64,000 bases of DNA from Stenotrophomonas africana (lineage in GTDB: Bacteria; Pseudomonadota; Gammaproteobacteria; Xanthomonadales; Xanthomonadaceae), in NCBI RefSeq assembly GCF_013004645.1, contig NZ_JABEME010000002.1:248001-312000 (forward strand), in the 5' to 3' direction. Below the pieces are notes generated by a model that saw only the letters and a program-made list of their open reading frames with translations, was not told the origin of the DNA and did no database searches. Numbering within the stretch: position 1 is the first letter of the stretch; each line of letters begins with the position of its first letter. A program made the translations under genes and the position numbers. Of the stretch, positions 3,894-22,072 are shown in pieces.

Positions 3894-3986
3894 TGGTGCC
3901 CCCGGTCGGGCTCGAACCGACACAAGCCGCTTATCTGGCGCTGACGGGTTATAAAACCGCTGCTCTACCTATTGAGCTACAGGGGC
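3894..3986 (-). tRNA. Atypical tRNA with long variable arm, anticodon read as UAU
   Basis: On the minus strand the acceptor arm is GCCCCTG/CGGGGGC with discriminator A and encoded CCA. The D arm is GCTC/GAGC and the T arm is GTCGG-TTCGAGC-CCGAC. The anticodon arm GCGGT-TTTATAA-CCCGT has one mismatch (T31/C39) and places TAT at 34-36, nominally Ile (AUA). About 22 nt between anticodon and T stems can form a bulged variable arm, giving 93 nt in all. Class II tRNAs are normally Leu, Ser, Tyr or Sec, so the isotype is unresolved. The 3' end faces the recombinase trio, making it a candidate attachment site. Confidence 0.75.
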
Positions 3987-5340: not shown

Positions 5341-6036
5341 CTACACGGCAGCGAACTCGCCCACTGGCTTGATCAAATCTGACAAATGGCCATCCACGAT
5401 GTGTACGTTTCGAGCGGCTTGAAGGGCCAGCTCCTGATCATGAGTCACCATGATGATCGTCGTACCCGCGATGTTGATCTCTTGGAGCAGCTCGAGGACG
5501 CCCCGCGCCATCTCTGTATCGAGATTACCGGTTGGTTCGTCGGCAAGCAGTAGCCTCGGACTGCCGGCGAGGGCTCGCGCAATGGCGGCTCTCTGTTGCT
5601 GCCCGCCTGACAGCGTGCTGGGGTAGTGGTTAGCTCTTGAGCCGAGGCCGACTCTCTCAAGGACGCTGATGATCCTTTGCTTACGATCCTTCGCGTCAAG
5701 GCCTCGATATCTCAAGGGGACGTCAACGTTGTCGTAGAGCGTCAGGTCAGGAATCAGGTTGAATCCTTGGAAGATGAATCCGACCTTCTCATTTCTGATC
5801 CGGCTGCGCTCGCGATCACCCAAGCGGGACACATCCTGCCCATCTAGCGCATAGGTGCCGCCGGAAGATTCCTCAAGAAGGCCTGCAATGTTGAGAAACG
5901 TCGATTTTCCAGAGCCGGAAGGACCTGTTACCGCTACGAACTCGCCCTCTTGCACGTGTAGATTTAGCTCCCTAAGCGCATGCGTCTGTACCTGTTGGAT
6001 CTGAAATACCTTGCTAAGCCCTTGCATCTTGAGCAT
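5341..6036 (-). CDS. ABC transporter ATP-binding protein, MacB/LolD type
   Basis: A 231-residue ATPase; the ATG at 6036 (AAGGTGCGAC upstream) fits the family start better than the longer frame. The Walker A GPSGSGKST, Q-loop FIFQGFNLIP, signature LSGGQQQRAAIARAL, Walker B LLLADEPTGNLD and H-loop VTHD are all intact. This is the profile of the MacB/LolD/FtsE group that works with FtsX-like permeases. It is the last gene of a minus-strand run with two such permeases and, further upstream, a lanthipeptide synthetase. In RiPP clusters such systems usually export product or protect the producer; that role here is inference from position. Confidence 0.9.
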   Translation of the reverse strand: MLKMQGLSKVFQIQQVQTHALRELNLHVQEGEFVAVTGPSGSGKSTFLNIAGLLEESSGGTYALDGQDVSRLGDRERSRIRNEKVGFIFQGFNLIPDLTLYDNVDVPLRYRGLDAKDRKQRIISVLERVGLGSRANHYPSTLSGGQQQRAAIARALAGSPRLLLADEPTGNLDTEMARGVLELLQEINIAGTTIIMVTHDQELALQAARNVHIVDGHLSDLIKPVGEFAAV

Positions 6037-6084
6037 GTCGCACCTTGTCGTTTGCCGACTAAGGGTCGGCACGTGGGAAATGGA

Positions 6085-7299
6085 TCAGAGTGAGCGGATA
6101 GCTTGTACAGGCGTGACTGCTGATGCCTTCAGAGCTGGGGCCAAGACTGCGGCCTGGCCTAGCAGCCACAGTGCCATGGCACTGACCGGAAGGTAGATTG
6201 CCGGCAGCCTAGGCAACTCGTAGAACCGCATCAGACCAAGATTCATCGCGTAAGAAAGAGCCACGCCAACCGCAATGCCAATACTGACGATCAGGAAGTT
6301 CTCGATCTGGAAGTAGCGCAAAATGTCCGACCGAGTGGCTCCCAACGCGCGCCGAATACCGATCTGCTTTCGGCGCTGCTCTACCCAGTAGCTGGCCAAG
6401 CCCACTATGCCTAACGCAGTGGCTCCAAGAAGGGCAATGATCACCGCGGCAAGCAGCCCCATCATGACCTTGGCGCTGCGGAAATAGTCTGATCTGAGTT
6501 CGGATACCGGGCGACTGGCAGATTGATCAAAGACCACATCAGGTGCGGCAGCGGATACGACCTTCCCCACTTGACCGAAAATTCGCGGAAGATCTTTCGG
6601 ATTGGCTTGCACCAAGTACCTGCCTGCGAGCTGTGGCCCAGCGACGGCTGGAACGATGAGCGACCAATCATTGCCCAATGCCTCTCCACCGCCGGGTTGC
6701 GAGACGACAAGGTGGTCGACGACACCAATTACAGTGAAACGGGTATCCATCGCCCACACGCTTTGACCAATTGCGCTTTGCCCTGGCCAATAGCGATCAG
6801 CCAATTGCCGAGTCACCAGCACAGGCGCGTTGGACGGGACGAACTGCGCGATGGGCGCATACTCGGCCGGCTCTGGCATACGGCCAGACACCACATTCAA
6901 ACCGAGGGCCTTCAGCGCCACAGCGTCCCCAAGATAGAAATCCAGCACTCCGCCAGAGCGCTCAAGCGCCTCGTCGATGTTCACACCAGCACGCACACCG
7001 GGATCGCCAAAGGGGACGGCACTGATGACGCCCACAGCCTGCACACCCGGAATGGCGCGGATAGCGTCTATTACACGCGCGTTGATGTCATTTGCATTCT
7101 CTGCACTGAATCCCGTCAGTTGGACGATCCCAAGTGATTGCTCCTGAATGCCGCTATCAAGGTTGAGCGCTCGATTCTTTTCCATGAACATGAAGATCGC
7201 GTTGCACAGAACCGCACATGCCAAAGCTATCTCAATAGCGATCAAGAACGTAGACAATTTGTGCTTCTTCAGCGCCGCGACGATGATTCCAACTTGCAT
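6085..7299 (-). CDS. FtsX/MacB-like ABC permease (second subunit)
   Basis: A 404-residue permease starting at the ATG at 7299 (GAGGGAAG upstream). It has an N-terminal membrane helix (STFLIAIEIALACAVLCNAI), a large periplasmic MacB-type core domain, and three C-terminal helices containing GIRRALGATRSDILRYF, the FtsX-family cytoplasmic loop. It starts 11 nt after the stop of the paralogous permease upstream and is followed by the MacB-type ATPase, so the three form one transporter. The periplasmic domain may handle a peptide substrate; the link to the lanthipeptide is contextual. Confidence 0.88.
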   Translation of the reverse strand: MQVGIIVAALKKHKLSTFLIAIEIALACAVLCNAIFMFMEKNRALNLDSGIQEQSLGIVQLTGFSAENANDINARVIDAIRAIPGVQAVGVISAVPFGDPGVRAGVNIDEALERSGGVLDFYLGDAVALKALGLNVVSGRMPEPAEYAPIAQFVPSNAPVLVTRQLADRYWPGQSAIGQSVWAMDTRFTVIGVVDHLVVSQPGGGEALGNDWSLIVPAVAGPQLAGRYLVQANPKDLPRIFGQVGKVVSAAAPDVVFDQSASRPVSELRSDYFRSAKVMMGLLAAVIIALLGATALGIVGLASYWVEQRRKQIGIRRALGATRSDILRYFQIENFLIVSIGIAVGVALSYAMNLGLMRFYELPRLPAIYLPVSAMALWLLGQAAVLAPALKASAVTPVQAIRSL

Positions 7300-7310
7300 G
7301 GCATCTTCCC

Positions 7311-8630
7311 TCAAAGCAGTTTCAGTTGGGCAACTGGCTGGATGGAACTCGCTCGATACGCAGGGATAGCACCCGCCAAGAGGCTTGTGAGCAAAGAAAG
7401 AACGAATGTTGCCAAGAACATTGCGGTGTCCAGGTGGACAAGATCGGCATAGGCGACTGGCTGAATGCGAATCGTCCACAGGCCGAGTAACGTTAGGAAC
7501 AAACCAAGTACGCCGCCCAAGGCGCCGATTACGCCGGCCTCGACCAAGCATTGCGTGAAGACAGCTAGTCTGCTTGCCCCCAACGCACGGCGGAGGCCTA
7601 TCTCCCCGCTGTGTCTCATGAACTTTGCGAGCAGCAGGCCGACTACGTTTGCGAGGCAGATCAGAAGGAAGGCGAAGGCTAAGGCCGTCTGAACTTTTAC
7701 ATCGCTGGGTACGACCTGATTGAAGTCCAGCCATCCCATTAAGGATCTCAATCGGGTGTTATCGTCATGTTTGATGCGTCCTAAACGCTTCTGCTCAGCA
7801 GCATAATTGCGGAGGAAGCGATCGTAGTCCTGAACGCGCTGCGGACCACTTAGCTTTACCCACAGCGCAACGGCGACGCAGGGCGAGCCTTCCAGCACAC
7901 CTGGGCGATCTGGGGTGGCCCAGCAAGTGAATGGTTGGAAGTCGCCCTCATTGATTTCGAGGCTAGCTGAAAGAGGTAGAAACACGTCGTCCGCGGCGCC
8001 GTAGAAACCTGAGGTCTCGCCGCCAGAGAAGCGTCCGCCTCTGATCTTGTAGAACAGCGGGGAAGGGCGCCATGGGCCTAGAACGCCAATGATCTGAAGA
8101 TTCGTATCTTTGACCCTGAGGCTCTGACCGATGCTGTTGCGGCCGCCGAATAACTTCTGGTTAAGTCGGTCGGAGATCACTGCCACACGACTGCGACGTG
8201 CGTCATCCTCGGCAACCCAAGTCCGCCCGTACTGTAGCGGTACATCGAACATGGTGAAGAAATCTGCGGTTGTCGATATCGAAGAGATCATCAGCGGTGC
8301 TGCGCCAGGAATCTCTGATCTAACCTTGGCAGGATTCGAGACCACCAGAGTCTGGCTATCCGCCTGCTTAGCGGACCACAGGTCGAACGCAGTCTTGTAG
8401 TCCATAACATCATAGGGTTCTCGCCCCTTGGACTCGGGATTCACATCGACCTGTGGGTAGTAGATGTCACCACTCTTGCCTGGAAGAGGATCTCCAGACA
8501 GGAGATGCATGACTGTAAGGGTTGTCATGCTCGCTCCAATGCCAACTGCTATCGCTAGGATCATTAAGCCAGTAATGACCTTGTTCCTTGCTGCGTTGTG
8601 CAGAGCAACCTTCACATAGTAGCTAAACAT
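7311..8630 (-). CDS. FtsX/MacB-like ABC permease (first subunit)
   Basis: A 439-residue inner-membrane permease with GGAGC ahead of the ATG at 8630. The N-terminal helix (VITGLMILAIAVGIGASMT) is followed by a MacB_PCD-like periplasmic region of about 260 residues. A C-terminal three-helix FtsX domain has the loop GEIGLRRALGASRLAVF. It is similar in plan to the next gene but not a close copy, as in heterodimeric MacB-type permeases. It lies in the same orientation as the exporter and LanKC genes upstream, with a 55-nt spacer, so the locus may be a single transcript or have an internal promoter. Confidence 0.88.
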   Translation of the reverse strand: MFSYYVKVALHNAARNKVITGLMILAIAVGIGASMTTLTVMHLLSGDPLPGKSGDIYYPQVDVNPESKGREPYDVMDYKTAFDLWSAKQADSQTLVVSNPAKVRSEIPGAAPLMISSISTTADFFTMFDVPLQYGRTWVAEDDARRSRVAVISDRLNQKLFGGRNSIGQSLRVKDTNLQIIGVLGPWRPSPLFYKIRGGRFSGGETSGFYGAADDVFLPLSASLEINEGDFQPFTCWATPDRPGVLEGSPCVAVALWVKLSGPQRVQDYDRFLRNYAAEQKRLGRIKHDDNTRLRSLMGWLDFNQVVPSDVKVQTALAFAFLLICLANVVGLLLAKFMRHSGEIGLRRALGASRLAVFTQCLVEAGVIGALGGVLGLFLTLLGLWTIRIQPVAYADLVHLDTAMFLATFVLSLLTSLLAGAIPAYRASSIQPVAQLKLL

Positions 8631-8685: not shown

Positions 8686-10290
8686 CTACGCCTGTTGAAG
8701 TGCGGCGTCCTCGACGGTCGAAGCACTCGCTGATCCAAGATCCAGCGTTCTATCAAAGAAGGCGCGGTACTCGATTCCGCCGTGCATGATCATTACCAGT
8801 GTTTTTCCCTTCGTGATCGTCATGATCATCTCCATGGCAGCTCGCTGGATGCCGACATCCAGGTTCGCAAGTGGTTCGTCTAATACATAGAGATCGGCCG
8901 CTCTACTGAGTACCATGGCCAAGGCAACCTTCTGCTGTTGACCTGCCGAGAGCTGCTCAGGATAAGCCTCAAGAACTTCTGACGAAGAGACGGCTAATTT
9001 CTTCAGAAGCTCAATGTCAATGCCAAGGTCCTTCACAGCGAGCGGCGGAAAGGCGAGTGGCAGAGTGGATGAACTGATTCTTGAAGGAAGTGAAATGATG
9101 CCGCTTGTTGGCTGTAGGTGCCTCGCGAGGATGTTGGCGAGCGTGGTTTTGCCCGATCCGTTGTCACCCGAAATTAGGACTCTTTGACCGCGATCGATGA
9201 CTGTCGACACATCCTGGAGAACGCTAGTTTGGCCGAAGCGGAAGGACACGCGATCGAGGACGACACTTTCCGAAATATGAAATTCGGTCGCACCCCGCAA
9301 CTGGAGAAATGTTGATACTCGATGAACCGTGGTGCCGTAGCTCTGCAGCTCTGCCCAGTGCTTGAAGATAGCGATGAGGGTTGTTGCTGCACGCCAGAAT
9401 GCATTCATGAATGCGATGAATGATCCAAAGGTCATCTTCTTCTGAAAGACGAATAGCGCGCCAACAAATATTGAGCACACATCCGACAGAACCATCGTCA
9501 AGTCACTTGCGCCTTGGAGTGTGCGCACCACCTTGAATCGGTTGTAGCTGGTGTCCAGCAGGCCGTGAATGCTCCTGTCGAACGAGCTCAACGTTTTTCC
9601 TGCCAGGCCGAATGTTCCAACCATCTTGAGGCTACCAATGGCTCTGGTGAGGACGCCTAAGACCTCGGCTTCCTTTTCCCGTTCTGTAGATGTAAGAGCT
9701 CTGACACGCTTTCCGACAATCAGACTGACAATCGTGGCCACAGGGATGAGCGCGGCGAGCACTGCGAAGGCCTGCCAGGAGATGTACAGCAGAGCGGTAA
9801 CCAACGCTACGAACATGGAGATCTTGACTGCCACTCCTCTTACTAAGGCCAGCATTGGTAACAGGCCATCCTTTACATCAGATCTGATTCGCGAGACGTA
9901 GTACCCAACTCCATTTCGTAGGAAATCTTCGTAGCGCTCACTGTAGAAGGCGCTCAGTAGATCTTCACTGACTCGCCTCACAATGCGGTTGTCCAATCGT
10001 TGCTGCCAAAGAGACGTCACGTAGGCAGCAACATTGAGTGACACGCCGAGCGCGAGATAGCCAATTACTAGGTGCATCAGGCGCGAGAAGTCGCCCCTTA
10101 GCGACGCCTCATCAAGAATCGCCTTGATCAGAAGAGGATGTATCAGACCTTCAACTGCACCAACTGTCGCAGCGATGATCGTCACCGCTAGGTACTCATG
10201 ACGGTTGGCGCCTAGCAAACGTGAGAAGTCACGCCAGGGTGTGTGGGCGTGAACAGGATCCGACAGATTGCTGCCGCTCGGCGTGTTCAT
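8686..10290 (-). CDS. ABC exporter with fused membrane and ATPase domains (LanT-like, no peptidase domain)
   Basis: A 534-residue half-transporter from the ATG at 10290. Residues 25-290 carry about six membrane helices. The C-terminal 200 residues form the nucleotide-binding domain, with Walker A GDNGSGKTT near 375, signature LSAGQQQKVALAM and Walker B YVLDEPLANLD. There is no N-terminal C39 leader-peptidase domain, so a separate protease must remove the leader if this exports the lanthipeptide. The gene starts 14 nt after the LanKC stop, which supports coexpression. The ATP-binding domain is shorter and more divergent than in MsbA. Probable exporter of the modified peptide. Confidence 0.85.
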   Translation of the reverse strand: MNTPSGSNLSDPVHAHTPWRDFSRLLGANRHEYLAVTIIAATVGAVEGLIHPLLIKAILDEASLRGDFSRLMHLVIGYLALGVSLNVAAYVTSLWQQRLDNRIVRRVSEDLLSAFYSERYEDFLRNGVGYYVSRIRSDVKDGLLPMLALVRGVAVKISMFVALVTALLYISWQAFAVLAALIPVATIVSLIVGKRVRALTSTEREKEAEVLGVLTRAIGSLKMVGTFGLAGKTLSSFDRSIHGLLDTSYNRFKVVRTLQGASDLTMVLSDVCSIFVGALFVFQKKMTFGSFIAFMNAFWRAATTLIAIFKHWAELQSYGTTVHRVSTFLQLRGATEFHISESVVLDRVSFRFGQTSVLQDVSTVIDRGQRVLISGDNGSGKTTLANILARHLQPTSGIISLPSRISSSTLPLAFPPLAVKDLGIDIELLKKLAVSSSEVLEAYPEQLSAGQQQKVALAMVLSRAADLYVLDEPLANLDVGIQRAAMEMIMTITKGKTLVMIMHGGIEYRAFFDRTLDLGSASASTVEDAALQQA

Positions 10291-10304: not shown

Positions 10305-13028
10305 TCACGCAGGATCTTCGACGAAGGCAACGATCGGTTGATGTGCTCGTGCCTTCAAAAAATTGGCGTCCAAGATGTCCAGACAAAAATCATCTGGATG
10401 AGGTGAACTCAGTCGATGCAAGGCCAGGATACTTCCAGCGATACCTGTGGCGTAGTCGCAGGAAATACGAAACAGGTTCTCTCCCGGAATAGCCGCTGTG
10501 TCGTCGTCACCAAAGACATAGATATCGGTGAGGCCGTCATAAGGTCGCTTAGCCAGATCTAGGTACCTAGCATCCCCTGAGTACACATAGGCATCCACCA
10601 GAGTGTCAATCAAGCCGGCAAGGCCATAGATGAGTCCCGGGAATCCTGAGTACTTGCGGTAGAGGTCCATCACTAGAGATTCAACTGTTTCCCATAGACC
10701 GTATCTGATGGCGACCTTAATGATGCCGGCGGTGCCTTGCTCCACGTAAGGTTCGTAGGTGGCCACGCCATTAGGCGCCGCAGCGAACGTGGAAATACCT
10801 GCTTCCAACTCGCTTCCCTGTGCCAGGTCGTAAGCCAGGGCCAGCTGTCCCATGGTTCGCCACTTGGCATCACCAGTAGCTTGGGACAAGCGAAGAAAGA
10901 AGAGTGCTACTCCTGATTGACCGTAGCCAAGTCCAATCCGGATGACGCCGTCGTCTTCCCAGTAGATGCCGTTCTCCGTTCGAACTGCAGATGATGCCAG
11001 TCGCAGGCCCAGCTCTAGGGCGGATTCGAGATAGTTCAAGTCGTGCGAAGCGACAAACGCTGCCAGGTTTGCCATTCCGATGCCAGCTGCTCCGTAGTAA
11101 AGGGAGATTTGGCCCATCGGAACTGGACTCCTGTTGGCCATATCAATGAAATTGAGTCCAACAGCATTGTGACCCATGGCCAGGTGGGCCCATCCAATTC
11201 CAGCTAGTCCCGTCAGCACGCCGGGCGGCGCGTTGGTCTCATGCAGACGACCTGCGTCCGCAAAATGTCGTTCGAGCACTTCATTCGGCACCTCCACGCC
11301 AGCGCGTGTGAGCGAGTAGATTACTCCCGACGACCCGAATCCCAAGCTGGTTGCGTTAGTGGAGAGGGCAAAGGGATCGCAAGGGAACAGCGTGTACTTC
11401 GGGTTCAATCGGTAGTTTTGCAGAACGAATCGCGACAGCCGTTCAAGCAGCGGCCCCAATGGCTCAGAGGAGGTCTCGCGCGAATCATACGGCTCACGTA
11501 TCGAGACATTTGGCAGTAGCCTTTCTTCGGCTTGCCGCAGAGTGGTCCGTCCCTGCGCTAGATCACGAATGACGTTGAGCACCGGCGTCCCTTCCCAGCC
11601 GATGTCCCGTACAAGAGTAGGGAGAACATTGTCAAAAAGATCGTCTCTAACATACGCCATCGCCACGATCGGGAACATGGAGTACATCATGATTGCAGAG
11701 ATTGCGTACAGATCGTCCTCCATGTTGCTGACCTTTGTTCTGCTCTTCATCTTGCTTCTGAAGCCAGGCGTGTGGATATCGTCCGACTCTCCCTGAGATG
11801 GCTGGAATGCGGCTTCCAGATCAATCAGGCGGACTTCCAAGGATTCTCTCTTCACCAAGATGTTTGGGGGCGACAGATCGCCAATCACCAGCCCCGCCTG
11901 ATGTGCCAGATCAACGGCTCTGAAGATGTTGGTAAAGATCGTGCGATACATTACGTAGAATTTTTCGCTATCCGCCGCAGATGGGCGTACCTTCATGAGT
12001 GGCGAAAATTGGAGCATGATCTGCCGCATATCCAGGGCATCGAAGTGCTCCTCTACCATGTAGAAGTTCTCCCAATCCCAGAACGAATCCAGCACCGCAG
12101 GGGCTATTCCTAGTGGACCGAGGATGTTCAGATTGGCCATCTCTCTTTTCAGGCGAGTGGTCGCATCACCGCCGTTCTCATAGAGCTCGACATGGGGTCT
12201 GGCCTCCTTGATGACGACTTTCTGATCGGTGCAAGTGTCCCTTGACAGGTATACGCCACCGGTGTTCGAGAAGCCCAAGGCGCTTTCGATCAGGTAGCGA
12301 CCGTTGTTCAGGGTCAATTCTCCTGCGTTCTCCTCATCGGAAGTAAAGGGATCCTGCGCCCACTCTGGAGTCTCGAAGTAAGGTGTTCGGCGATCGGGTA
12401 CATGATCTCCTGATGGCGAAACCAGCATCGGGATCATTCTTCCCATGAAGTCCAGGCGGTTCACCTGGATGATGCCGCCGTATCGGTAGTAGATGCAGCG
12501 ACTGTCTTTGTAGCGCTTGTCGGACAGGATGTACGATCCGATGCTCGCTCCCACCTCCTGATAAAGAAGCTCGATTAGCTCTTTAAATTCGGTATCGGTG
12601 TGAGGGTAGACGGTAATGAACTTTCCAGATCCACCCCGAGGCCAGCGCTTTGACGTCATCATCCGCATGGTGCGGCAGTCGTTGGCGAATTTGAACTGAA
12701 CATCCCGCTGGAGCAACAGCTCAGCAACACGCTGGAGAGTCTGCTTACAGTTCTCCTCGATTGCTGAAAGGTGGATCTTCCAGCCTTGGGATGGAAGTGG
12801 GCGCACGCCAGACTTCGCAGGCGGCAAGACATGGGACCACACTCCGATCTGTCGAATGCTCCAGTCTCGACCATGCTCCAGGAGAATCGAGTTCACGATC
12901 GATACCAGCTCATCGGTTGGCTTGTAATGCTCGTAGTTCGGTTCGTAGAAGCGTTCGTCGCTACCAATGAAGTTGATCTTGTCGACATGCCGCAGCTCAC
13001 GCAGCGTAGAGTTTCCTGCTGACATCAC
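10305..13028 (-). CDS. Class III lanthipeptide synthetase (LanKC)
   Basis: A 907-residue three-domain enzyme that phosphorylates Ser/Thr, eliminates phosphate and cyclises Cys in a precursor peptide. The N-terminal 220 residues match the LanKC/LanL lyase region. The kinase domain has its lysine in VVIKEARPH (near 272), the catalytic loop GDLSPPNIL (near 385) and the metal aspartate in IDLEAAF. The C-terminal third is LanC-like, with repeats such as GVLTGLAGIGWAH, LYYGAAGIG, GYGQSGVAL and GFPGLIYGLAGL. The zinc ligands of LanC/LanL (WCYG, CHG) are not present, which points to class III rather than IV. The start is GTG at 13028 or ATG at 13025, with AAGGA upstream. Confidence 0.92.
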   Translation of the reverse strand: MMSAGNSTLRELRHVDKINFIGSDERFYEPNYEHYKPTDELVSIVNSILLEHGRDWSIRQIGVWSHVLPPAKSGVRPLPSQGWKIHLSAIEENCKQTLQRVAELLLQRDVQFKFANDCRTMRMMTSKRWPRGGSGKFITVYPHTDTEFKELIELLYQEVGASIGSYILSDKRYKDSRCIYYRYGGIIQVNRLDFMGRMIPMLVSPSGDHVPDRRTPYFETPEWAQDPFTSDEENAGELTLNNGRYLIESALGFSNTGGVYLSRDTCTDQKVVIKEARPHVELYENGGDATTRLKREMANLNILGPLGIAPAVLDSFWDWENFYMVEEHFDALDMRQIMLQFSPLMKVRPSAADSEKFYVMYRTIFTNIFRAVDLAHQAGLVIGDLSPPNILVKRESLEVRLIDLEAAFQPSQGESDDIHTPGFRSKMKSRTKVSNMEDDLYAISAIMMYSMFPIVAMAYVRDDLFDNVLPTLVRDIGWEGTPVLNVIRDLAQGRTTLRQAEERLLPNVSIREPYDSRETSSEPLGPLLERLSRFVLQNYRLNPKYTLFPCDPFALSTNATSLGFGSSGVIYSLTRAGVEVPNEVLERHFADAGRLHETNAPPGVLTGLAGIGWAHLAMGHNAVGLNFIDMANRSPVPMGQISLYYGAAGIGMANLAAFVASHDLNYLESALELGLRLASSAVRTENGIYWEDDGVIRIGLGYGQSGVALFFLRLSQATGDAKWRTMGQLALAYDLAQGSELEAGISTFAAAPNGVATYEPYVEQGTAGIIKVAIRYGLWETVESLVMDLYRKYSGFPGLIYGLAGLIDTLVDAYVYSGDARYLDLAKRPYDGLTDIYVFGDDDTAAIPGENLFRISCDYATGIAGSILALHRLSSPHPDDFCLDILDANFLKARAHQPIVAFVEDPA

Positions 13029-13094
13029 ACGCTATCCTTGGAGATGATCGGCCTGCAGTCTCAATCACGCACTGGCAGCCGGTACTGTCATGGA

Positions 13095-13118
13095 AGGGCG
13101 CCGGATTTCCGGCGCCCT
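13095..13118 (-). promoter_or_regulatory. Hairpin between first precursor gene and LanKC
   Basis: A perfect 10-bp GC-rich stem (AGGGCGCCGG/CCGGCGCCCT) with a 4-nt loop, located after the stop of the precursor at 13128-13250 and before LanKC. There is no long T run on the minus strand, so it would act as a partial terminator or an mRNA 3'-end stabiliser. Such elements commonly keep precursor expression above synthetase expression. Confidence 0.7.
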
Positions 13119-13127
13119 CTTTATTAC

Positions 13128-13250
13128 CTACTGCAGTTCCTGTTCCTGTGCGGGACCGCAGCATGTATGGGTCGAACTTGTTGAACTGTTGCCCAAGAGG
13201 CTGTACGAGGTATCTAGAGACAGGCGCTGCAGATTCAGTACACGATTCAT
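13128..13250 (-). CDS. Lanthipeptide precursor peptide 1 (LanA1)
   Basis: A 40-residue peptide directly upstream of LanKC. The leader MNRVLNLQRLSLDTSYSLLG contains VLNLQRL, the type of L-x-L-Q motif that class III synthetases bind. The C-terminal core NSSTSSTHTCCGPAQEQELQ holds Ser, Thr and two Cys and includes STSSTHTC, an S-x2-S-x3-C pattern as used for labionin rings. The start ATG has AGAGGAAAGC upstream. Two further genes share the first ten residues almost exactly. Modification and final structure are inferred. Confidence 0.88.
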   Translation of the reverse strand: MNRVLNLQRLSLDTSYSLLGNSSTSSTHTCCGPAQEQELQ

Positions 13251-13676
13251 CCTTGCTTTCCTCTACGTCTCAGGGGAGCGCCACTCTCTTCAGTTCATCA
13301 TCCTTGGATGAGCGCGCGCCTTGCTGGTAGGTGATGGAATCGCCAGCTGAGATTCATACAATCGGCTGGCGGTTGCCTGTATCAACGTGCTTGTTCGACA
13401 GGCGTCGCGCAGCAGCTATGTTGCGAGCTGGTACAGCTGTTTCCGAGCGCCGATACGCTGCTGTCCAGAAGCAATTTCTGCAAGCTGAGAACTCTATTCA
13501 TTGAAGGATCCTCTTCTGATAGGAGGTTCGCCGATGAACCGCTTTCGGCCAACGCGTCGAGCCGGTTGCGTCGGTGAGTACTCCTCTGCGGGAAATCAAT
13601 CGGATGACGTGGCAGTGCTTGAGGTGCCGCCGAGGCACCTAGGAAGCCAGCGGCGGCACGTCATGCGTCAGCGGCT
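13251..13676. other. Spacer between precursor genes, with a possible decayed small frame
   Basis: Mostly no gene. On the plus strand a 48-residue frame runs 13534-13680 with a very good AGGAGG site and begins MNRF, recalling the MNRV start of the precursors, but it then diverges and lacks the leader motif and Cys-rich core. A hairpin AGGTGCC-GCCGA-GGCACCT at 13622-13640 lies downstream of the second precursor on the minus strand and could end its transcript. Confidence 0.4.
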
Positions 13677-13799
13677 TTAAAGCTGCTGCTCCTGGCTGCT
13701 GCCGTCACAGCAACTGTGCGTGGAGCTACTGCAACTATTGCCCATCAGGCTGACGTTGGTATCCAGAGCCAGGCGTTGCAGATTCAGTACACGGTTCAT
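13677..13799 (-). CDS. Lanthipeptide precursor peptide 2 (LanA2)
   Basis: A 40-residue peptide starting at the ATG at 13799 (GGAG seven bases upstream). The leader MNRVLNLQRLALDTNVSLMG is nearly the same as in precursor 1. The core NSCSSSTHSCCDGSSQEQQL has three Cys and seven Ser/Thr, including SSSTHSCC, which allows an S-x2-T-x3-C labionin-like pattern plus an extra Cys near the leader boundary. The longer frame upstream of this ATG has no leader-like features, and the conserved upstream block ending GGAGAGTTGTT supports this start. Confidence 0.87.
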   Translation of the reverse strand: MNRVLNLQRLALDTNVSLMGNSCSSSTHSCCDGSSQEQQL

Positions 13800-13801
13800 A
13801 A

Positions 13802-13817
13802 CAACTCTCCATAGTTG
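13802..13817 (-). promoter_or_regulatory. Conserved hairpin presenting the ribosome binding site of LanA2
   Basis: CAACT-ATGGAG-AGTTG forms a 5-bp stem with the Shine-Dalgarno GGAG in or at the edge of the loop. The same 16 bases, followed by TT and ATG, precede LanA3 at 14383-14398. The conservation may reflect recent duplication or translational control. Confidence 0.5.
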
Positions 13818-14351
13818 ACTACGAAATTCCGAGCAACCTCGACCATGGGCCGGGCAGTCGGCGGGGTACTGCACGGCTGACTGATCAGCTGCGCAGATGC
13901 TTGGGCAGGGAATGGTCTTGCATGCAGATAGGGGAGCGGTCTACTCAACCGGAGATCTGTGCGCATGCTGATGCAGGGCGCACTGGGATGCTCTGGCCAT
14001 TCCATGCCGATACATACTCCTTAATGCGTGCAGTCCGCTAAGCATCATCACGTTCGAAGGACGATGTTCGACTGCAACTGGATTTGATGGTGCTTCAAAG
14101 ATTGGGCCGAGTCTAGATGACGAATGATCAAGAACATTGCCGGAACATTGCGGGGTGACATTTTTTTCGCACTTCTCATTGCTGCGAAGCAACAGGTGCG
14201 TTTTCTGATTATTTTGTATTGACGTTGGCAACGGGGGCTGTCACCGTTCGCCCATTGAAGCGCTGGCATAGGAACTCACGCGTTGTTTGACGCCGCCAGT
14301 CTGAAAAATTCCGGTCTGTGCAGATGATCAGCCGTGCATTGATCGGTGTGT
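13818..14351. other. Divergent intergenic region between LanA2 and LanA3
   Basis: About 530 nt with no supported gene, lying between two precursor genes transcribed away from each other. It should hold both promoters, but I could not pick a convincing -35/-10 pair. An AT-rich stretch (TTTTTTTCGC near 14162 and TTTTGTATTG near 14213) stands out. Confidence 0.4.
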
Positions 14352-14380
14352 ATCCGGCGGCATGGTGTCGCCGGATTTTT
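14352..14380 (+). terminator. Terminator-like hairpin just upstream of LanA3
   Basis: ATCCGGCG-(9 nt)-CGCCGGAT directly followed by TTTT, ending about 10 bases before the ribosome site of LanA3. In this position it can act as an attenuator in the LanA3 leader, or end transcripts entering from the left. Part of the surrounding sequence resembles the LanA2 upstream region, but the perfect stem is seen only here. Confidence 0.6.
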
Positions 14381-14400
14381 CGCAACTATGGAGAGTTGTT

Positions 14401-14514
14401 ATGAACCGTGTACTGAATCTGCAGCGCTTGATGATGGACTCGTCGATCGGCCTGATGGGCAATAGTTGCAGTAGCTCGACCCATTCTTGCTGCAACAACC
14501 AGCAGGAAAGGTGA
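14401..14514 (+). CDS. Lanthipeptide precursor peptide 3 (LanA3), opposite strand
   Basis: A 37-residue peptide beginning MNRVLNLQRLMMDSSIGLMG and ending with the core NSCSSSTHSCCNNQQER. The leader motif and the NSCSSSTHSCC block are the same as in LanA2; only the leader middle and the tail differ. It is on the plus strand, transcribed away from the LanKC operon, so it must be expressed from its own promoter. Its upstream block (GGAGAGTTGTT before ATG) is shared with LanA2. Too short for ordinary gene calling, but the family pattern is clear. Confidence 0.86.
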   Translation: MNRVLNLQRLMMDSSIGLMGNSCSSSTHSCCNNQQER

Positions 14515-15814: not shown

Positions 15815-16411
15815 ATGGCTCGAATCCGTAACGACAAACTCCACGAAGAGCGCCGTGCTCAGATCCTGGAGGCCGCCGCCAGCGTCTTCCGCGAAAAGGG
15901 CTTTCACGCGGCACGTACGGAAGATATCTGCACTCAGGCCGAGATGAGTGCTGGTGCAGTGTTCCGCTACTTCAAGGACAAACGCGAGATGATCGATGCC
16001 ATCGTCTCTCGGGAAATCTCCAGCTACGCAAACGATGCCAAGGCGCTCGTGAGCCGGGAAGGGCTCGAGTGGCTGGCCAGGGCGAGCTCCGAGGAACTGA
16101 AGGAGCGTTGGAAGGAGTCTGACAACGGTCTCGGCCTGGATGCATGGATGGAGCTGGTTCGCGATCCTGACCGTCACCGGGAGATCCTAGACCTGGATGT
16201 AGAGACGCGAAAGGACCTGGCCCTTACTCTGGAATCGGGCATTAGAGAGGGATGGGTCCGACCCGGGATCGACCCCGAAGGCACGGCGTCACTGATTGTC
16301 ACGGTGACAAACGGGTTGTGGCTTGAGCAGTCGTTGAAAAAGACCGCGGATGTGGAGCAGTCAGCCAAAGCCGTCCGCGACTTCCTCAGGAGTCACGTGC
16401 TGAAAACATGA
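15815..16411 (+). CDS. TetR-family regulator of the efflux operon
   Basis: A 198-residue TetR protein. The N-terminal DNA-binding domain is standard: RRAQILEAAASVFREKGF, then TEDICTQAEMSAGAVFRYF with the recognition helix. The ligand domain ends in a helix (SAKAVRDFLRSHVLK). It lies directly before the RND operon in the same direction and ends at an intrinsic terminator. Near-identical 18-bp sites precede its own operon and the pump operon, so autoregulation and repression of the pump are the likely arrangement. The inducer is unknown. Confidence 0.88.
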   Translation: MARIRNDKLHEERRAQILEAAASVFREKGFHAARTEDICTQAEMSAGAVFRYFKDKREMIDAIVSREISSYANDAKALVSREGLEWLARASSEELKERWKESDNGLGLDAWMELVRDPDRHREILDLDVETRKDLALTLESGIREGWVRPGIDPEGTASLIVTVTNGLWLEQSLKKTADVEQSAKAVRDFLRSHVLKT

Positions 16412-16438
16412 TCGAGCCAACAGGTTCTTCCTGACAGG

Positions 16439-16467
16439 GAGGGCGCCAGATTGCGCCCTCATTTTTT
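16439..16467 (+). terminator. Intrinsic terminator after TetR gene
   Basis: GAGGGCGC-CAGATT-GCGCCCTC is followed by ATTTTTT. It separates the regulator transcript from the efflux operon, which therefore needs its own promoter. Confidence 0.85.
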
Positions 16468-16476
16468 GCATAAATG

Positions 16477-16494
16477 TGCGACGAAGTACTCCAT
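16477..16494 (+). promoter_or_regulatory. Candidate TetR operator, copy 2
   Basis: TGCGACGAAGTACTCCAT, 16 of 18 bases identical to 15412-15429. It lies between the terminator and the start of the adaptor gene at 16519, where a repressor would block the pump promoter. Confidence 0.6.
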
Positions 16495-16518
16495 CCAATA
16501 ACATCAGAGCAACCACCC

Positions 16519-17646
16519 ATGCGCTTTACGACCCGCCCCCCTCAATGGCCGCGCCAACTGGCGATAGGCCTGCTCGTCATCGGCCTTGCTGCCTGTTCGC
16601 CTGACGCACCCCAGAAAACGCAGAAGCCCACTGCACTCACCGCGAGCGTCAGCTTTGTCCATCGTCATGAACTGACGCCGGAAGTCCGCATCGTCGGACA
16701 GCTGGTGCCGCAGGAGATGGTGCGTGTCCAGCCGCAGGTTGATGGACTGATCGTGCAGAAGGTGCTGGTCGAAGCCGGGCAGCATGTGCGTGCGGGCCAG
16801 CCCCTGCTGGCGCTTGATGTGACCACTACCAAGCTGCAGCAACAGCAAGCCGCCGCAGAACGGCAGCGGGCGTGGGCGGATGTCGAGCGCATGCGCCGCG
16901 AACTGGAAAAGATGCGAGCGGTTGCCGACATTGGAGGCATTTCGCGCAATACCATTGAAAGCAACGCGCTTCAGCTGAAGGCGGCCGAGGCGACCGCCCA
17001 TGCCGCCGACGCTGCGGAAGCGTTGGCGAGTACCCGGCTGCAGCAGGCAGCCTTCCGCGCCCCCTTTGATGCGCTGGTGCTTCAGCGAAACGTAGAGGTG
17101 GGCGACCGCACCGGCGCCGCCGAAACACCGTACTTCGTTCTTGCCAAGGACGGCGGCGTGGAGTTCGAAGCGTTCGCCAGTCTCCGCCAGCTCGACCAGA
17201 TCAAGCCCGGCATGGCCGCACGCATCCAGGTTGACGGCCAGGTGCCGGCCGCAGGCCAGGTCAAGAGTGCTGCAGTCGCCGTTGATGGCCAGACCCGCAG
17301 TGGCCGCGTACGTGTCACTGCCGATGCCTCTGCGCTCGGCGCCAGTGGCGCGCCCGCATCGATCCTGATCACCTTGCCCAGCCGCCAGGCGGTAGCCGTG
17401 CCGGTGGATGCGCTGCGCTTTGACCCGACTCCCTGGGTATGGAAGGTCGATGAGCGCAACGTCGTGCGTCGCCAGGACGTGGAGCTTGGCGTTGCCAACG
17501 GCGACCACTACGAGGTCATCCGTGGGTTGAAGGAAGGGGATCGTGTCGTCGGCGATTCCGGTGCGCTGCTTGTCGAAGGTGACCAGATCACCGCAGTCGA
17601 TCCGCGCAGCCCGGTTGCCGCTCCGTCAGCGAGGAAGCCCAAGTGA
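16519..17646 (+). CDS. RND efflux periplasmic adaptor (membrane fusion lipoprotein)
   Basis: A 375-residue adaptor. The ATG at 16519 gives a lipoprotein signal peptide ending in the lipobox LAAC; the in-frame ATG at 16474 would put 15 extra residues in front and overlaps the operator. The biotinyl-lipoyl half motifs (VQPQVDGLIVQKVLVEAGQH and FRAPFDALVLQRNVEVGD) flank a helical hairpin, followed by beta-barrel and membrane-proximal domains. It links the inner-membrane pump with the outer-membrane channel. The stop overlaps the GTG start of the pump gene by 4 nt, indicating coupled translation. Confidence 0.92.
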   Translation: MRFTTRPPQWPRQLAIGLLVIGLAACSPDAPQKTQKPTALTASVSFVHRHELTPEVRIVGQLVPQEMVRVQPQVDGLIVQKVLVEAGQHVRAGQPLLALDVTTTKLQQQQAAAERQRAWADVERMRRELEKMRAVADIGGISRNTIESNALQLKAAEATAHAADAAEALASTRLQQAAFRAPFDALVLQRNVEVGDRTGAAETPYFVLAKDGGVEFEAFASLRQLDQIKPGMAARIQVDGQVPAAGQVKSAAVAVDGQTRSGRVRVTADASALGASGAPASILITLPSRQAVAVPVDALRFDPTPWVWKVDERNVVRRQDVELGVANGDHYEVIRGLKEGDRVVGDSGALLVEGDQITAVDPRSPVAAPSARKPK

Positions 17647-20600
17647 AGATCGGCATTTCCGAATGGGCGGTCAAGCATCCCACGCCCGTCATTCTTCTCT
17701 TCGTGTTGCTGACCCTGATGGGCATCGGTGGCTATGCCGGTCTTCCGCTGGCTGGATCGCCGAAGGTCGAGCTTCCCATCGTCGAAGTGCGCGTCGATCA
17801 ACCCGGCGCCACTCCAGCGGAGCTTGAGGGAAACGTCGCCCGCCGTATCGAAGATGGACTCAGCGATATTGCCTCGCTCAGTCATCTCAACACGGTCATC
17901 AGCGAAGGCTCCGTGGTCATCACGGCAGAGTTTGCCTTTGATGCGAACCTGGATCGCGCAACGCAGGACGTGCGCGAGTCGGTCTCGCGCGTCCGTCCTC
18001 AGCTGCCGGGCAACGTCTCCGAGCCAGTGATCAAGCGCGTCGATGTTTCCGGTGGCGTGCAGTTGAGCTACGCCGTGCGTTCGGACACCTTGTCCCAGGT
18101 GGCGCTGAGCCGCTACATCGACGAGGAGGTGCGCCCAGCACTGCTCGCCGTGCCGGGCGTCCAGGAAGTCACCCGCCGCGGCGGTGCCCGTCGCGAGTTC
18201 CGTGTCGAGCTGGAACCCGAAAGGCTGGCGGCCAGCGGCCTCAGCCTGGCCGAGGTCCATCGGCAGCTCATTGCCAGTGAAGCCAACCTGCCGGGCGGCA
18301 GTGTCCGCAACGAGGTCGGCGACCGGTCGATCCGCATCACCAGCGCAAGTGCCTCGGCCATTGCGCTGGGCGAAAAGCTGATCAGCCTCCCGGCTGGTGG
18401 CAGCATCCGCCTGGACGAGGTCGCCCACATTCTGGACGCCGGCAACGCAAGCGAAGGCTACGCGATGCTGGACGGCCGTCCGGTCACCGTCATCGAACTG
18501 CGCAAGAAGCGCGGCGCCAGCGAAACCAGCATGGCCGATGCCGTGGCCAAGACACTGGCCGACATGCAGCGTTCCCCGCACCTGGCCACCTTCGAGCTGT
18601 TCAATGACGGTGTGCAGACCACGCGTGAGAGCTTCCATAGCGCACGCAGCACCCTACTGGAAGGTGCCGCGCTGACCGTTCTCGTCGTGCTGCTGTTCCT
18701 GCGCAGCTGGCGCGCCACCCTGGTCGCAGCGCTCGCCATCCCGTTCTCGCTGCTGCCTACATTTGCCGCGATGTACGCGCTGGGCTTCTCGCTCAACGTC
18801 ATCACCCTGCTGGCCCTGATCCTGGTCATCGGCATCCTCGTCGATGACGCGATCGTCGAGGTCGAGAACATCGAGCGGCGCATCGAGCAAGGGGATAGTC
18901 CGCGCCAGGCGGCACTACTCGGTGCAGATGCGATCGGACTGGCCGTGATCGCGATCACCGCCACCATCGTCGCCGTGTTCCTTCCGGTCAGCCTGATCCC
19001 GGGCATGATCGGCCAGTTCTTCCGGGAGTTTGGCCTGACCGCCAGCATCGCGGTGATCGCCTCGTTGATCGTGGCGCGGCTGCTGACCCCGCTGCTCTGC
19101 GCCGTGCTGCTGAAGCCGCGCCCGCATGCGCAGGCCGGCACCACCGAATCCGCGCTCACCCGTCATTACGATCGATTGCTGACCTGGACGCTGCGTCATC
19201 GCAAGACCAGCGTGCTGGCCGCCGTGCTGGTGATGGTCGCCACTGTCGGGTTGCTGTCGATGATTCCGTCCGGCTTCATCCCCACGCCGCAGCCCAATGC
19301 CTACCAGGTGCGTTACCAGCTCTCGCCCGGCATCACGTACGAGCGCGCGGTGCATCGCGCCGAAGCCATCCGCCGGGCGGTGGATGGCATCCCGGAGGTC
19401 AAGCACGTGTTCCTTTCCGATGGCGGAAGCGCCTTCACCGGCACGGCCCTGCTTGTACTGAAGCCACGCGGCGAGCGGTCGCGGCCGAACGCGGCGATCG
19501 AGCAATCCATCCGCGAGCGGCTGGAGGGGCTGAAGGACATTCGCCCGGAGCTGCTGCTGGGGGAGGGCAACAAGGAAATGTCGCTGTCGTTCCGCAGCCG
19601 GGATACCGCTGCCCTCGATGCATTCGTTACCCAGTTGGGGCGTGAGGCCAAATCGATCCCGGGCCTGCGCGATGTCAGCACCACCATTCCTCTGCCGCGC
19701 CCGGGCTACGACCTGAAGATCAATCAGCAGGATGCCGCCCGACTGGGCGTCCTTCCGCAGGATCTTGCGTCCATGCTCAATACCGCCAGCTACGGTGGCC
19801 TGGATACGTTGCTGCCACGCGTGCCGGTGGGCAACGAACAGGTGCCCGTCCGCATCCGGGTAGCCGGTGGTACGCGTATCAGTGCGGAACAGATCCTGGA
19901 TCTTCCGGTGCAGACCAAGTCCGGGAAGACCATCCCGCTGCGTGCGTTGGCCACCCTTGTTCCCACCGAAACACCGGCCAGCGTGCGTCGCCTTGACCGC
20001 GAGCGGGTCGTTGAACTAACCGCCAACCTGAACGGACTGACGCTCAGCCAGGCGGTCGAGCAGGTCCGCCAGCTGAAGACCTACGCGCAGATGCCCGCTG
20101 GAGTGCGCTACACCGAGTACGGCGACACCAAGTACATGACCGAAATGTTCACGCAGTTCGGTGTGGCCATCCTGCTGGGGCTGGTAGCCGTCTACGCCGT
20201 GCTGGTGCTGCTCTTCAGTGATTGGCTGCAGCCGATCACCATCATGACGGCACTTCCGCTGTCTCTCGGTGGTGCGGCGCTGGCGCTGCTGCTTACCGGC
20301 CATTCGCTGACCATTTCCACGGTGATTGGCTTGCTGATGCTGTTCGCAATCGTCGGCAAGAACTCGATCCTGCTGGTGGACTACATCGTTGAAGACCGCG
20401 AGAAGGGCCAGGACCGGGAGCAGGCCGTGCGTAGTGCGGGCCGTGAACGTATCCGCCCCATCCTGATGACGACCGTCGCCATGGTTGGCGGCATGTTGCC
20501 GGCAGCCTTTGGCTTCGGTGGCGACGATGGCTTCCGCGCGCCGATGGCGATCGCGGTGGTCGGCGGTCTGCTGGCCTCCACGCTGCTGAGCCTGCTGTTT

Positions 20601-20693
20601 GTCCCGGTGGCCTACACCCTGATGGATGACCTGGAGAACCGATGGCTGCGCCGTCGCAAGAACCACCCCTTGAACGGAGAGACTGCCCCGTGA
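17643..20693 (+). CDS. RND multidrug efflux pump, inner-membrane subunit
   Basis: A 1016-residue resistance-nodulation-division transporter of the AcrB/MdtB-like group, with a GTG start overlapping the adaptor stop. Twelve membrane helices and two large periplasmic loops are evident. The proton-relay aspartates sit in VIGILVDDAIVEVEN (TM4) and the lysine in FAIVGKNSILLVDYI (TM10). These are drug/proton rather than metal-pump features. Together with the flanking adaptor and outer-membrane gene it forms a complete tripartite pump. S. maltophilia has several Sme systems; I cannot say which, if any, this equals. Confidence 0.93.
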   Translation: MKIGISEWAVKHPTPVILLFVLLTLMGIGGYAGLPLAGSPKVELPIVEVRVDQPGATPAELEGNVARRIEDGLSDIASLSHLNTVISEGSVVITAEFAFDANLDRATQDVRESVSRVRPQLPGNVSEPVIKRVDVSGGVQLSYAVRSDTLSQVALSRYIDEEVRPALLAVPGVQEVTRRGGARREFRVELEPERLAASGLSLAEVHRQLIASEANLPGGSVRNEVGDRSIRITSASASAIALGEKLISLPAGGSIRLDEVAHILDAGNASEGYAMLDGRPVTVIELRKKRGASETSMADAVAKTLADMQRSPHLATFELFNDGVQTTRESFHSARSTLLEGAALTVLVVLLFLRSWRATLVAALAIPFSLLPTFAAMYALGFSLNVITLLALILVIGILVDDAIVEVENIERRIEQGDSPRQAALLGADAIGLAVIAITATIVAVFLPVSLIPGMIGQFFREFGLTASIAVIASLIVARLLTPLLCAVLLKPRPHAQAGTTESALTRHYDRLLTWTLRHRKTSVLAAVLVMVATVGLLSMIPSGFIPTPQPNAYQVRYQLSPGITYERAVHRAEAIRRAVDGIPEVKHVFLSDGGSAFTGTALLVLKPRGERSRPNAAIEQSIRERLEGLKDIRPELLLGEGNKEMSLSFRSRDTAALDAFVTQLGREAKSIPGLRDVSTTIPLPRPGYDLKINQQDAARLGVLPQDLASMLNTASYGGLDTLLPRVPVGNEQVPVRIRVAGGTRISAEQILDLPVQTKSGKTIPLRALATLVPTETPASVRRLDRERVVELTANLNGLTLSQAVEQVRQLKTYAQMPAGVRYTEYGDTKYMTEMFTQFGVAILLGLVAVYAVLVLLFSDWLQPITIMTALPLSLGGAALALLLTGHSLTISTVIGLLMLFAIVGKNSILLVDYIVEDREKGQDREQAVRSAGRERIRPILMTTVAMVGGMLPAAFGFGGDDGFRAPMAIAVVGGLLASTLLSLLFVPVAYTLMDDLENRWLRRRKNHPLNGETAP

Positions 20694-22072
20694 AGTACAT
20701 GACCCTCCGCCGTCGTTTCATGGCCATCACCATCACCGCCGTGTTGGGGGCCATCGGGTCTCCTGCAGCGCTCGCACAGGCCAGCCAGCCCGCGTGGGTG
20801 CACTGGGAGGATCCGGAGCTAGAGCGGTTGCTGTCGCTCGCATCCAGAAGCTCTCCGACGCTGGCGCAGGCGGCCGCACGCCTAGAAGAAGCGCGCGCCG
20901 CCACGGCCGGTGCGCAGGCCAATCGCTGGCCAGAGCTGACGGCCAACGGTGGCGTGCAGCGCACGCAGCGCCCGGAGTCGAGTGCCCTAGTCAGCAGCAC
21001 GGGATCTCCACGCTACTTCACCCAGAGCAATCTGGATGCAACGCTGCGGTGGCAGATCGATCTGTTTGGCCGAAAGCGCGCCGCCCTGGCCAGCAGCGCT
21101 GCCCGCCAGGAAGCGGAACGCCTGGAGTTCATCCGCACGCGGGCCCGGCTGGCCGCCGAGATCGCGCGGCAGTACATGATGTTGCGCGCGGGTGACCAGC
21201 AGCAGCGGGTTGAAGAAGAACTGGCGATCGTCCTCAGCGAGATTGCCGGCATCGACGAGGCGCTTGAGCAGGCAGGACTGCAGTCGGTTGCGGAGACCGC
21301 GCCCCTGAAAGTGGAGATCGCCAATCGCCAGGCCAGCCTGGAGGAGGGCCTTCACAACCGCGCATTGGCCATGGCCAGGCTGGCTACCCTCACCGGGATC
21401 AGTCCTCCGTTGCTCGACGACATCGCCTCCCGCTACCGTCCGGCGCCGCAATGCGCCAGTCCCGAGCCGATTGGCATTCCGATCAGCGTTGTCGCCAGCC
21501 GCCCGGAAGTCATGGCTGCGGAGTCACTGCTGCGCGCCAGCCAGGCAGATCGCTTCATTGCCGAACGCGCGAACTGGCCCACGCTGACCCTGTCCGGAAC
21601 GGGGGGCTGGGCGAGGGAGGGCAGCGGTGGCGGACTGATCGCAGGGAGCAACCTGGCCAGCCAGCTGCTCGGCTCCCTGGGCCTGCAACTGCTCGACTTC
21701 GGCCGGGCCCGTGCAGAGAAGGATGCCGCACAGGCACGTCTTGACCGTGCCGGCGCCACCTATGCAGAGGCGATTCTTCTAGCAGCAGAGGACGTCGACG
21801 CTGCGGTTGCAGATGTCTCGCGTGCCTCGAAGTCCCGCGAGCAGCAGAGGGTAGCGGCGAGCACTGCCGATCGCGCCATGCTGATTGCTGACGCGAGGCT
21901 TGAATCCGGCCTGATCAATCGGCGCGAAGATCTGGCGATCAGGCGGAGCACGCTGGAAGAGCGCCTGAGGCTGATCGCAACCGTCCAGCAGAAATGCGAG
22001 GCGGACATCCGCCTCTCGCTGGCGACCACATCAGGTGGACCGCCTGCCACAAACCGGATCAGCAGTCGCTGA
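20690..22072 (+). CDS. Outer-membrane efflux channel (TolC/NodT family)
   Basis: A 460-residue outer-membrane factor; the GTG at 20690 overlaps the pump stop and has CGGAGAG upstream. The start MKYMTLRRRF leads into a signal peptide ending AALAQAS, with no lipobox. Two homologous coiled-coil halves follow, with patterns such as TLAQAAARLEEARAATAGAQ and GSLGLQLLDFGRARAEKDAA, typical of this family. It completes the tripartite pump and ends 67 nt before a second TetR gene. Confidence 0.9.
   Translation: MKYMTLRRRFMAITITAVLGAIGSPAALAQASQPAWVHWEDPELERLLSLASRSSPTLAQAAARLEEARAATAGAQANRWPELTANGGVQRTQRPESSALVSSTGSPRYFTQSNLDATLRWQIDLFGRKRAALASSAARQEAERLEFIRTRARLAAEIARQYMMLRAGDQQQRVEEELAIVLSEIAGIDEALEQAGLQSVAETAPLKVEIANRQASLEEGLHNRALAMARLATLTGISPPLLDDIASRYRPAPQCASPEPIGIPISVVASRPEVMAAESLLRASQADRFIAERANWPTLTLSGTGGWAREGSGGGLIAGSNLASQLLGSLGLQLLDFGRARAEKDAAQARLDRAGATYAEAILLAAEDVDAAVADVSRASKSREQQRVAASTADRAMLIADARLESGLINRREDLAIRRSTLEERLRLIATVQQKCEADIRLSLATTSGGPPATNRISSR

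Follow-up and report, generated by a model that had tools for sequence, protein, structure and literature searches.

What does the locus described here encode? The window, by which we mean the whole analysed stretch of 64,000 nucleotides from Stenotrophomonas africana (contig NZ_JABEME010000002.1, positions 248,001 to 312,000; genome G000 in our set), carries a gene for a lanthionine synthetase, lanKC, together with four short precursor genes and a run of transporter genes, which we interpret as a class III lanthipeptide cluster. Precursors 1 to 3 lie upstream of lanKC on its strand and precursor 4 on the opposite strand; the minus-strand genes from lanKC to the ATPase are separated by 11 to 55 bases, three start codons being inferred. 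The features are as follows.

5341 to 6072, minus strand: ATP-binding cassette (ABC) ATPase; best matched by the DarD model, at 262.7 bits, which is short of the cut-off of 375
6085 to 7299, minus strand: MacB/FtsX-type permease 2; start codon inferred, the longest open reading frame beginning at 7734
7311 to 8630, minus strand: MacB/FtsX-type permease 1 (MacB_PCD and FtsX)
8686 to 10290, minus strand: ABC exporter with fused membrane and ATPase domains and without a peptidase domain, likely LanT-like; start codon inferred
10305 to 13025, minus strand: lanKC, class III lanthionine synthetase of 906 residues (lyase, kinase and zinc-free cyclase), by domain, model, fold and zinc-ligand evidence
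13095 to 13118: hairpin of 10 pairs (9 G-C) between precursor 1 and lanKC
13128 to 13250, minus strand: precursor 1, MNRVLNLQRLSLDTSYSLLGNSSTSSTHTCCGPAQEQELQ, 40 residues; lanthi_III_a (NCBIfam) 28.9 bits, cut-off 22
13382 to 13501, minus strand: precursor 2, MNRVLSLQKLLLDSSVSALGNSCTSSQHSCCATPVEQAR, 39 residues, starting MNRVLSLQKL; lanthi_III_a 22.9 bits, cut-off 22
13677 to 13799, minus strand: precursor 3, MNRVLNLQRLALDTNVSLMGNSCSSSTHSCCDGSSQEQQL, 40 residues; lanthi_III_a 25.8 bits
13708 to 13817: arm of an inverted duplication, 110 bp, 82.7% identical to 14383-14492; holds the first part of precursor 3
14383 to 14492: other arm of the inverted duplication; holds most of precursor 4
14401 to 14514, plus strand: precursor 4, divergent copy, MNRVLNLQRLMMDSSIGLMGNSCSSSTHSCCNNQQER, 37 residues; lanthi_III_a 19.4 bits, falling short of 22

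The original prediction had named three peptides of 37 to 40 residues beginning MNRVLNLQRL. These exist as stated, being precursors 1, 3 and 4 (40, 40 and 37 residues), but there are four precursors, the one at 13382-13501 having been overlooked. They had also been called unannotated, a description that fails for relatives, whose homologous peptides NCBI already lists as 'class III lanthipeptide [Stenotrophomonas]'; the window's own peptide stands in the database listing without a source name. Three of the four pass the lanthi_III_a cut-off, and a purine-rich stretch resembling a ribosome-binding site, judged by eye, precedes all four starts. Since precursors 3 and 4 lie in the inverted duplication, the divergent copy seems to have arisen by duplication, and the layout of three precursors plus a divergent one is repeated in G021. 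The leader and core motifs together occur four times in the window, always within the cluster, and never in 100 block-shuffled windows, while the core motif alone occurs four times in the window as compared with six times summed over the 100 shuffles. Eight orthologue comparisons with G080, G021 and G089 over the first 31 codons gave 84.2 synonymous differences at 168.5 sites (0.50) versus 48.8 nonsynonymous differences at 575.5 sites (0.08); as judged from coding sequence, all four precursors are under purifying selection. Scans for promoters and terminators were set aside, with two sites found versus 0.8 expected for the former and, for the latter, two near the cluster versus 1.7, which is about the shuffle level.

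The precursors are held together by a short core and a short leader. Across an alignment of 19 precursors from eight loci, one of them with a TTG start, M1, R3, L5, L7, Q8, S22, S25, S26, C30 and C31 are invariant, giving a ten-residue core S-x2-S-S-x3-C-C in every sequence; the expression was built on the first loci and then found at the others, and it also describes the precursor of G622, which we count apart. It is this pattern, rather than the S-x2-S-x3-C put forward in the original prediction (six of 19; in the window only precursor 1, the peptide at 13250), that is conserved. The LxLQ leader, described for class III together with the S-x2-S-x3-C motif in the text available of PMC7268733, is present throughout (L5, L7 and Q8 in 19 of 19), as had been proposed. 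Because a wider pattern, SxxSx{2,5}C, is in use and class III peptides without it occur, according to the accessible part of PMC11251773, we do not take strict S-x2-S-x3-C as defining; the wider pattern is found in all 19 precursors. A profile search of the database returned 37 peptides, all with the S-x2-S-S-x3-C-C core and the LxLQ leader, an agreement that is partly built in, the profile having been made from the same 19 sequences and at least seven of the 37 being rows of the alignment, the window's included. In nine of the 37 the tail after the paired cysteines is reduced to two residues, so that it is probably dispensable.

Three lines of evidence, a curated model, a comparison of zinc ligands and the predicted fold, identify the enzyme of the window as a class III LanKC, and the earlier description of it as a synthetase with kinase, lyase and zinc-ligand-free cyclase domains is borne out. 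RamC_N, Pkinase and LANC_like domains, each above its gathering threshold, follow one another in a single chain, which the class III model NF038151 scores at 643.6 bits (cut-off 575) and the class IV model NF038150 at 422.8 bits (cut-off 650). The former zinc-ligand positions are E762, I799 and Y800 in an hhalign comparison with five class II LanMs (probability 49.8%), so the zinc ligands are absent; E762 is invariant in 60 of 60 sequences. The top match by fold is ThurKC, with 25% identity across 801 aligned residues, and the eight lyase catalytic residues of ThurKC given in the part of PMC10604976 open to us, mapped by hand, are invariant in an alignment of eight sequences.

How far does this system extend? 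Within the genus, a LanKC profile (E <= 1e-40) matches 14 of 91 genomes, comprising four intact members of the window's clade, one truncated member (G058) and nine enzymes of other lineages, one of them partial; seven of these nine loci have precursor candidates with other cores. The precursor profile gives 12 strong matches in the same 91 genomes (E up to 2.7e-17), each of them in one of the four genomes whose clade LanKC is intact, and elsewhere two weak matches with E near 0.008. Scanning contigs with a single LanKC sequence returned no relative and scanning with an alignment returned five, namely in Stenotrophomonas bentonitica VV6, Oleiagrimonas soli, Duganella sacchari, an Oxalobacteraceae metagenome-assembled genome (MAG) and a Sphingomonas MAG; G622, from another genus of the family, is a further member. 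Conserved peptides stand next to LanKC in relatives; with this and the missing zinc ligands, both outcomes that the original prediction had named as its refutation failed to appear. In a tree of 35 LanKCs, a branch with 100/100 support sets the nine clade members apart from Deinococcus, Streptomyces, Bacillota and the remaining lineages of the genus; 12 ungrouped LanKCs fall on the clade side as well, and outside the clade three long branches leave the placements unsure. A distinct LanKC subfamily is thus supported by sequence, as had been suggested, but it is not confined to gammaproteobacteria, since the contigs that carry its members are assigned to three proteobacterial classes, beta- and alphaproteobacterial ones included, the alphaproteobacterial member being a MAG. 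The database holds 1652 LanKC homologues at E <= 1e-30; among the matches listed (120 of the 1652), the names given by NCBI include Stenotrophomonas, Xanthomonas, Janthinobacterium, Massilia and Pyrinomonadaceae. A class-wide profile search at E 1e-40 found G000 alone among the 369 genomes drawn.

Some observations on distribution stand beside these results. In G058 (L045:7287-10600) only the C-terminal part of LanKC is present, next to an IS21 element; a precursor was not found there. Phages and plasmids were considered as carriers of the clade enzyme and rejected, as the viral scan gave one distant relative of 28% identity and all 42 plasmid records lie below 60% identity. A 33-residue peptide with the same core, P0152, occurs on 921 contigs and is named for Stenotrophomonas, as compared with at most seven contigs for any LanKC among the 120 matches listed; a partner enzyme for it was not found, the precursor profile giving no strong match in genus genomes beyond the four and nothing in phages, plasmids or viral contigs.

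Downstream of lanKC, the transporter genes point to a route out of the cell. We compared nine loci (the window, G080, G021, G089, G148, the Oxalobacteraceae MAG, Duganella, the Sphingomonas MAG and G622), leaving out G058 with its incomplete LanKC and no precursor. Every one of them has the fused ABC exporter after LanKC, eight have both MacB/FtsX permeases, the exception being the Sphingomonas MAG, and six have an orthologue of the ATPase. In the fetched stretches, genes for an HlyD adaptor and TolC adjoin the ATPase at two loci, both betaproteobacterial; all six gammaproteobacterial clade genomes have an adaptor homologue elsewhere in the genome, which could serve export. A domain search found no peptidase domain in the fused exporter, and none of the cluster's genes was recognised as a leader protease. 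As judged from these genes, dedicated ABC transporters are likely to take the modified peptides out of the cell: the exporter that lacks a peptidase domain would bring them across the inner membrane and a MacB/FtsX-type complex would move them out of the periplasm, with HlyD and TolC completing the route at the two betaproteobacterial loci. At the Sphingomonas MAG locus (L050:12187-16244), a TonB-dependent receptor stands after the exporter, and about 0.9 kb beyond it a radical S-adenosylmethionine protein, nearest to maturase models for ribosomally synthesised and post-translationally modified peptides (RiPPs), below their cut-offs.

What would the enzyme make of its substrates? Very probably, one LanKC dehydrates and cyclises four similar S-x2-S-S-x3-C-C cores by class III processing. 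The R-x-L-x-L-Q leader would dock on the kinase domain of LanKC, as in ThurKC; kinase and lyase would turn Ser and Thr into dehydro-residues; and the metal-free cyclase would link the three invariant Ser with the two invariant Cys. As three Ser and two Cys are just what one labionin and one lanthionine need, we predict a labionin from Ser22, Ser25 and either Cys30 or Cys31 and a lanthionine from Ser26 and the other Cys; this is arithmetic, not proof, and the prediction seems about equally apt to hold or to fail. A strong rival is the formation of two (methyl)lanthionines only, without labionin, the third invariant Ser remaining as dehydroalanine or serving recognition. It is quite plausible, if short of an even chance: strict S-x2-S-x3-C occurs in so few precursors, the same motif yields lanthionine alone in some class III peptides according to the available portion of PMC7268733, and a Myxococcus class III product is listed with lanthionines only in the accessible part of PMC9576775, whereas Ser22 is invariant in all 19 precursors despite variable adjoining residues, and SxxSx{2,5}C is equally universal. 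The Stenotrophomonas cores could instead bear a noursin-like histidine crosslink, perhaps copper-binding, given that a His lies within the ten-residue core of all 12 aligned Stenotrophomonas precursors and that the noursin LanKC joins His to dehydrobutyrine, as stated in the text seen of PMC10206099. This is improbable, as the conserved core His of noursin-type LanKC substrates is present in only 16 of the 37 database peptides and missing from both Oleiagrimonas peptides, and its spacing differs from that of noursin residues 8 and 11. Still further from probable is a zinc-dependent class IV LanL, the outcome that the original prediction had named as its own refutation. The order of lyase, kinase and cyclase is common to both classes, and CuvL, which we take to be class IV, comes second by fold, ahead of the class III enzymes SalKC and PneKC; however, ThurKC comes first, NF038150 falls 227 bits short of its cut-off, and neither Cys nor His occupies the ligand positions.

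Several points weigh against the labionin, lanthionine and dedicated export that we favour, all three of which are inferred. Cys30 and Cys31 are interchangeable, which leaves the rings ambiguous; strict S-x2-S-x3-C is lacking in 13 of the 19 precursors, the six that have it having Ser23; a labionin expression that forbids an inner Cys describes only 11 of the 19; and 10 of the 19 cores have an extra Cys23. On the enzyme side, the hhalign comparison with LanM is weak (the 49.8% was obtained in global mode), and an alignment with ThurKC puts the second zinc motif one residue off, although neither shows Cys or His there. F770 and D771 of ThurKC, said to matter for cyclisation, are not both kept in the window's LanKC, the counterparts being I799/Y800 or Y800/G801. 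As to export, no orthologue of the ATPase turned up in the G080, G622 and Sphingomonas MAG stretches, and homologues of the MacB/FtsX permeases occur in 90 of the 91 genus genomes, so that the family is not specific to the cluster. We accordingly rejected the permease as a cluster marker, G000 itself having a paralogue of permease 1, 76% identical, at G000:C23:70413-71723 without an adjoining precursor of this family; a 48% paralogue adjoins an HlyD adaptor homologue (G000:C25:190267-193530). The MacB/FtsX genes might then be unrelated neighbours or serve self-immunity, the fused ABC exporter alone carrying the peptide, a possibility consistent with their presence throughout the genus and with the Sphingomonas locus that lacks both permeases. 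We regard this as rather unlikely, since both follow LanKC and exporter at eight of nine clade loci, tightly spaced in the window, while ten stretches of other LanKC lineages contain no homologue of permease 1 and just one weak partial match to permease 2, in G085. For the favoured reading in its widest form, a Proteobacteria-wide family of miniature lanthipeptides with labionin and lanthionine formed from adjacent Ser and Cys, an undescribed ring system, and with dedicated MacB-TolC-type export across the whole envelope, our expectation is doubtful. As to function, our guess is a secreted antibacterial or signal peptide, antibacterial being slightly likelier.

The surroundings of the cluster and the other lineages of the genus deserve a brief account. 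At window position 3894-3986 and upstream of it (L080:6183-11318), a tRNA-Ile (anticodon tat) stands near four consecutive open reading frames, the first an XerC/D-like tyrosine recombinase below cut-offs and the rest almost without family match, so that a mobile element seems to flank the cluster on its left. To the right, 15815-22072 holds a TetR gene, an HlyD-type adaptor, an AcrB-type pump and one more open reading frame. As the adaptor is found in one of 91 genus genomes (E 1e-100), G000 itself, the right flank, too, has the look of accessory DNA; this resistance-nodulation-division (RND) pump was rejected as a part of the system on the same count, and the other clade stretches have no orthologue of its genes. 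The genome further encodes a class II LanM at G000:C29:56986-59721 (L097; 496 bits, cut-off 304). Elsewhere in the genus, the G066 precursor at 9176 of L031, with an AAWST.S.GCN...DEWST.S..C core, is close to precursors of a Deinococcus sp. QL22 plasmid (L103), and the LanKCs of G066 and G061 group with Deinococcus in the tree; from these likenesses in sequence, transfer across phyla is likely. Another LanKC lineage (L039, L040, L041, L042 and L043) has MNNVLALQ... precursors with two Cys ahead of most core Ser, an order that is odd for a lanthipeptide.

Work on class III synthetases has centred on Gram-positive bacteria. How metal-free cyclases come to form labionin or lanthionine is stated to be an open question in the pages available of PMC10604976. 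A Gram-negative clade whose core is short and invariant gives that question a compact substrate, and the four precursors, with one core pattern and varied flanks in one genome, form a natural series for studying ring choice. The linked MacB/TolC-type genes in turn make export across two membranes testable. One point of comparison is Lysobacter, which presumably belongs to the same bacterial family as the window's host. Eight class III biosynthetic gene clusters with three unique precursors are described for it in the text accessible of PMC11451712, and class III lanthipeptides are mentioned in two further Lysobacter papers, PMC9410377 and PMC10380237; we liken these clusters to ours by description only. 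For Myxococcus fulvus, refactoring of a cluster yielded a class III product, according to the part available of PMC9576775. Class III outside actinobacteria and firmicutes, the two groups from which the original prediction took it to be best known, is thus already in print, and, with homologous peptides already named by NCBI, what we describe is a distinct subfamily of a known kind, apparently undescribed so far, and not a new class. Among the papers listed by searches of a literature collection with few subscription journals, we found no description of the S-x2-S-S-x3-C-C core, its export genes or a Stenotrophomonas class III cluster.

Compared with known systems, the window's precursors resemble those of the lanthi_III_a and lanthi_III_c models and the NCBI-named Stenotrophomonas proteins, 37 database peptides having the same leader and core, but these NCBIfam models are general, unlike the specific core and exporter set of the window. 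The export genes recall those of darobactin (DarB, DarC, DarD), with DarD the best model for the window's ATPase at a score short of the cut-off; the betaproteobacterial adaptor scores 51.2 bits against DarC (cut-off 450) and better against the general RND_mfp model. Class III clusters on Deinococcus plasmids have the same order of precursor array, LanKC and fused ABC exporter, but differ in LanKC (33-34% identity), in their WST.S..C cores and in that the stretches read carry no annotated MacB/FtsX genes. ThurKC with ThurA1 from Bacillus thuringiensis (PMC10604976, as far as available; PDB 8sam, 8sao, 8sap) shares the three-domain synthetase, the lyase catalytic residues and the metal-free cyclase, the zinc positions being S, F and D there versus E, I and Y here; unlike that system, the window's combines paired cysteines in a short core with Gram-negative export genes.

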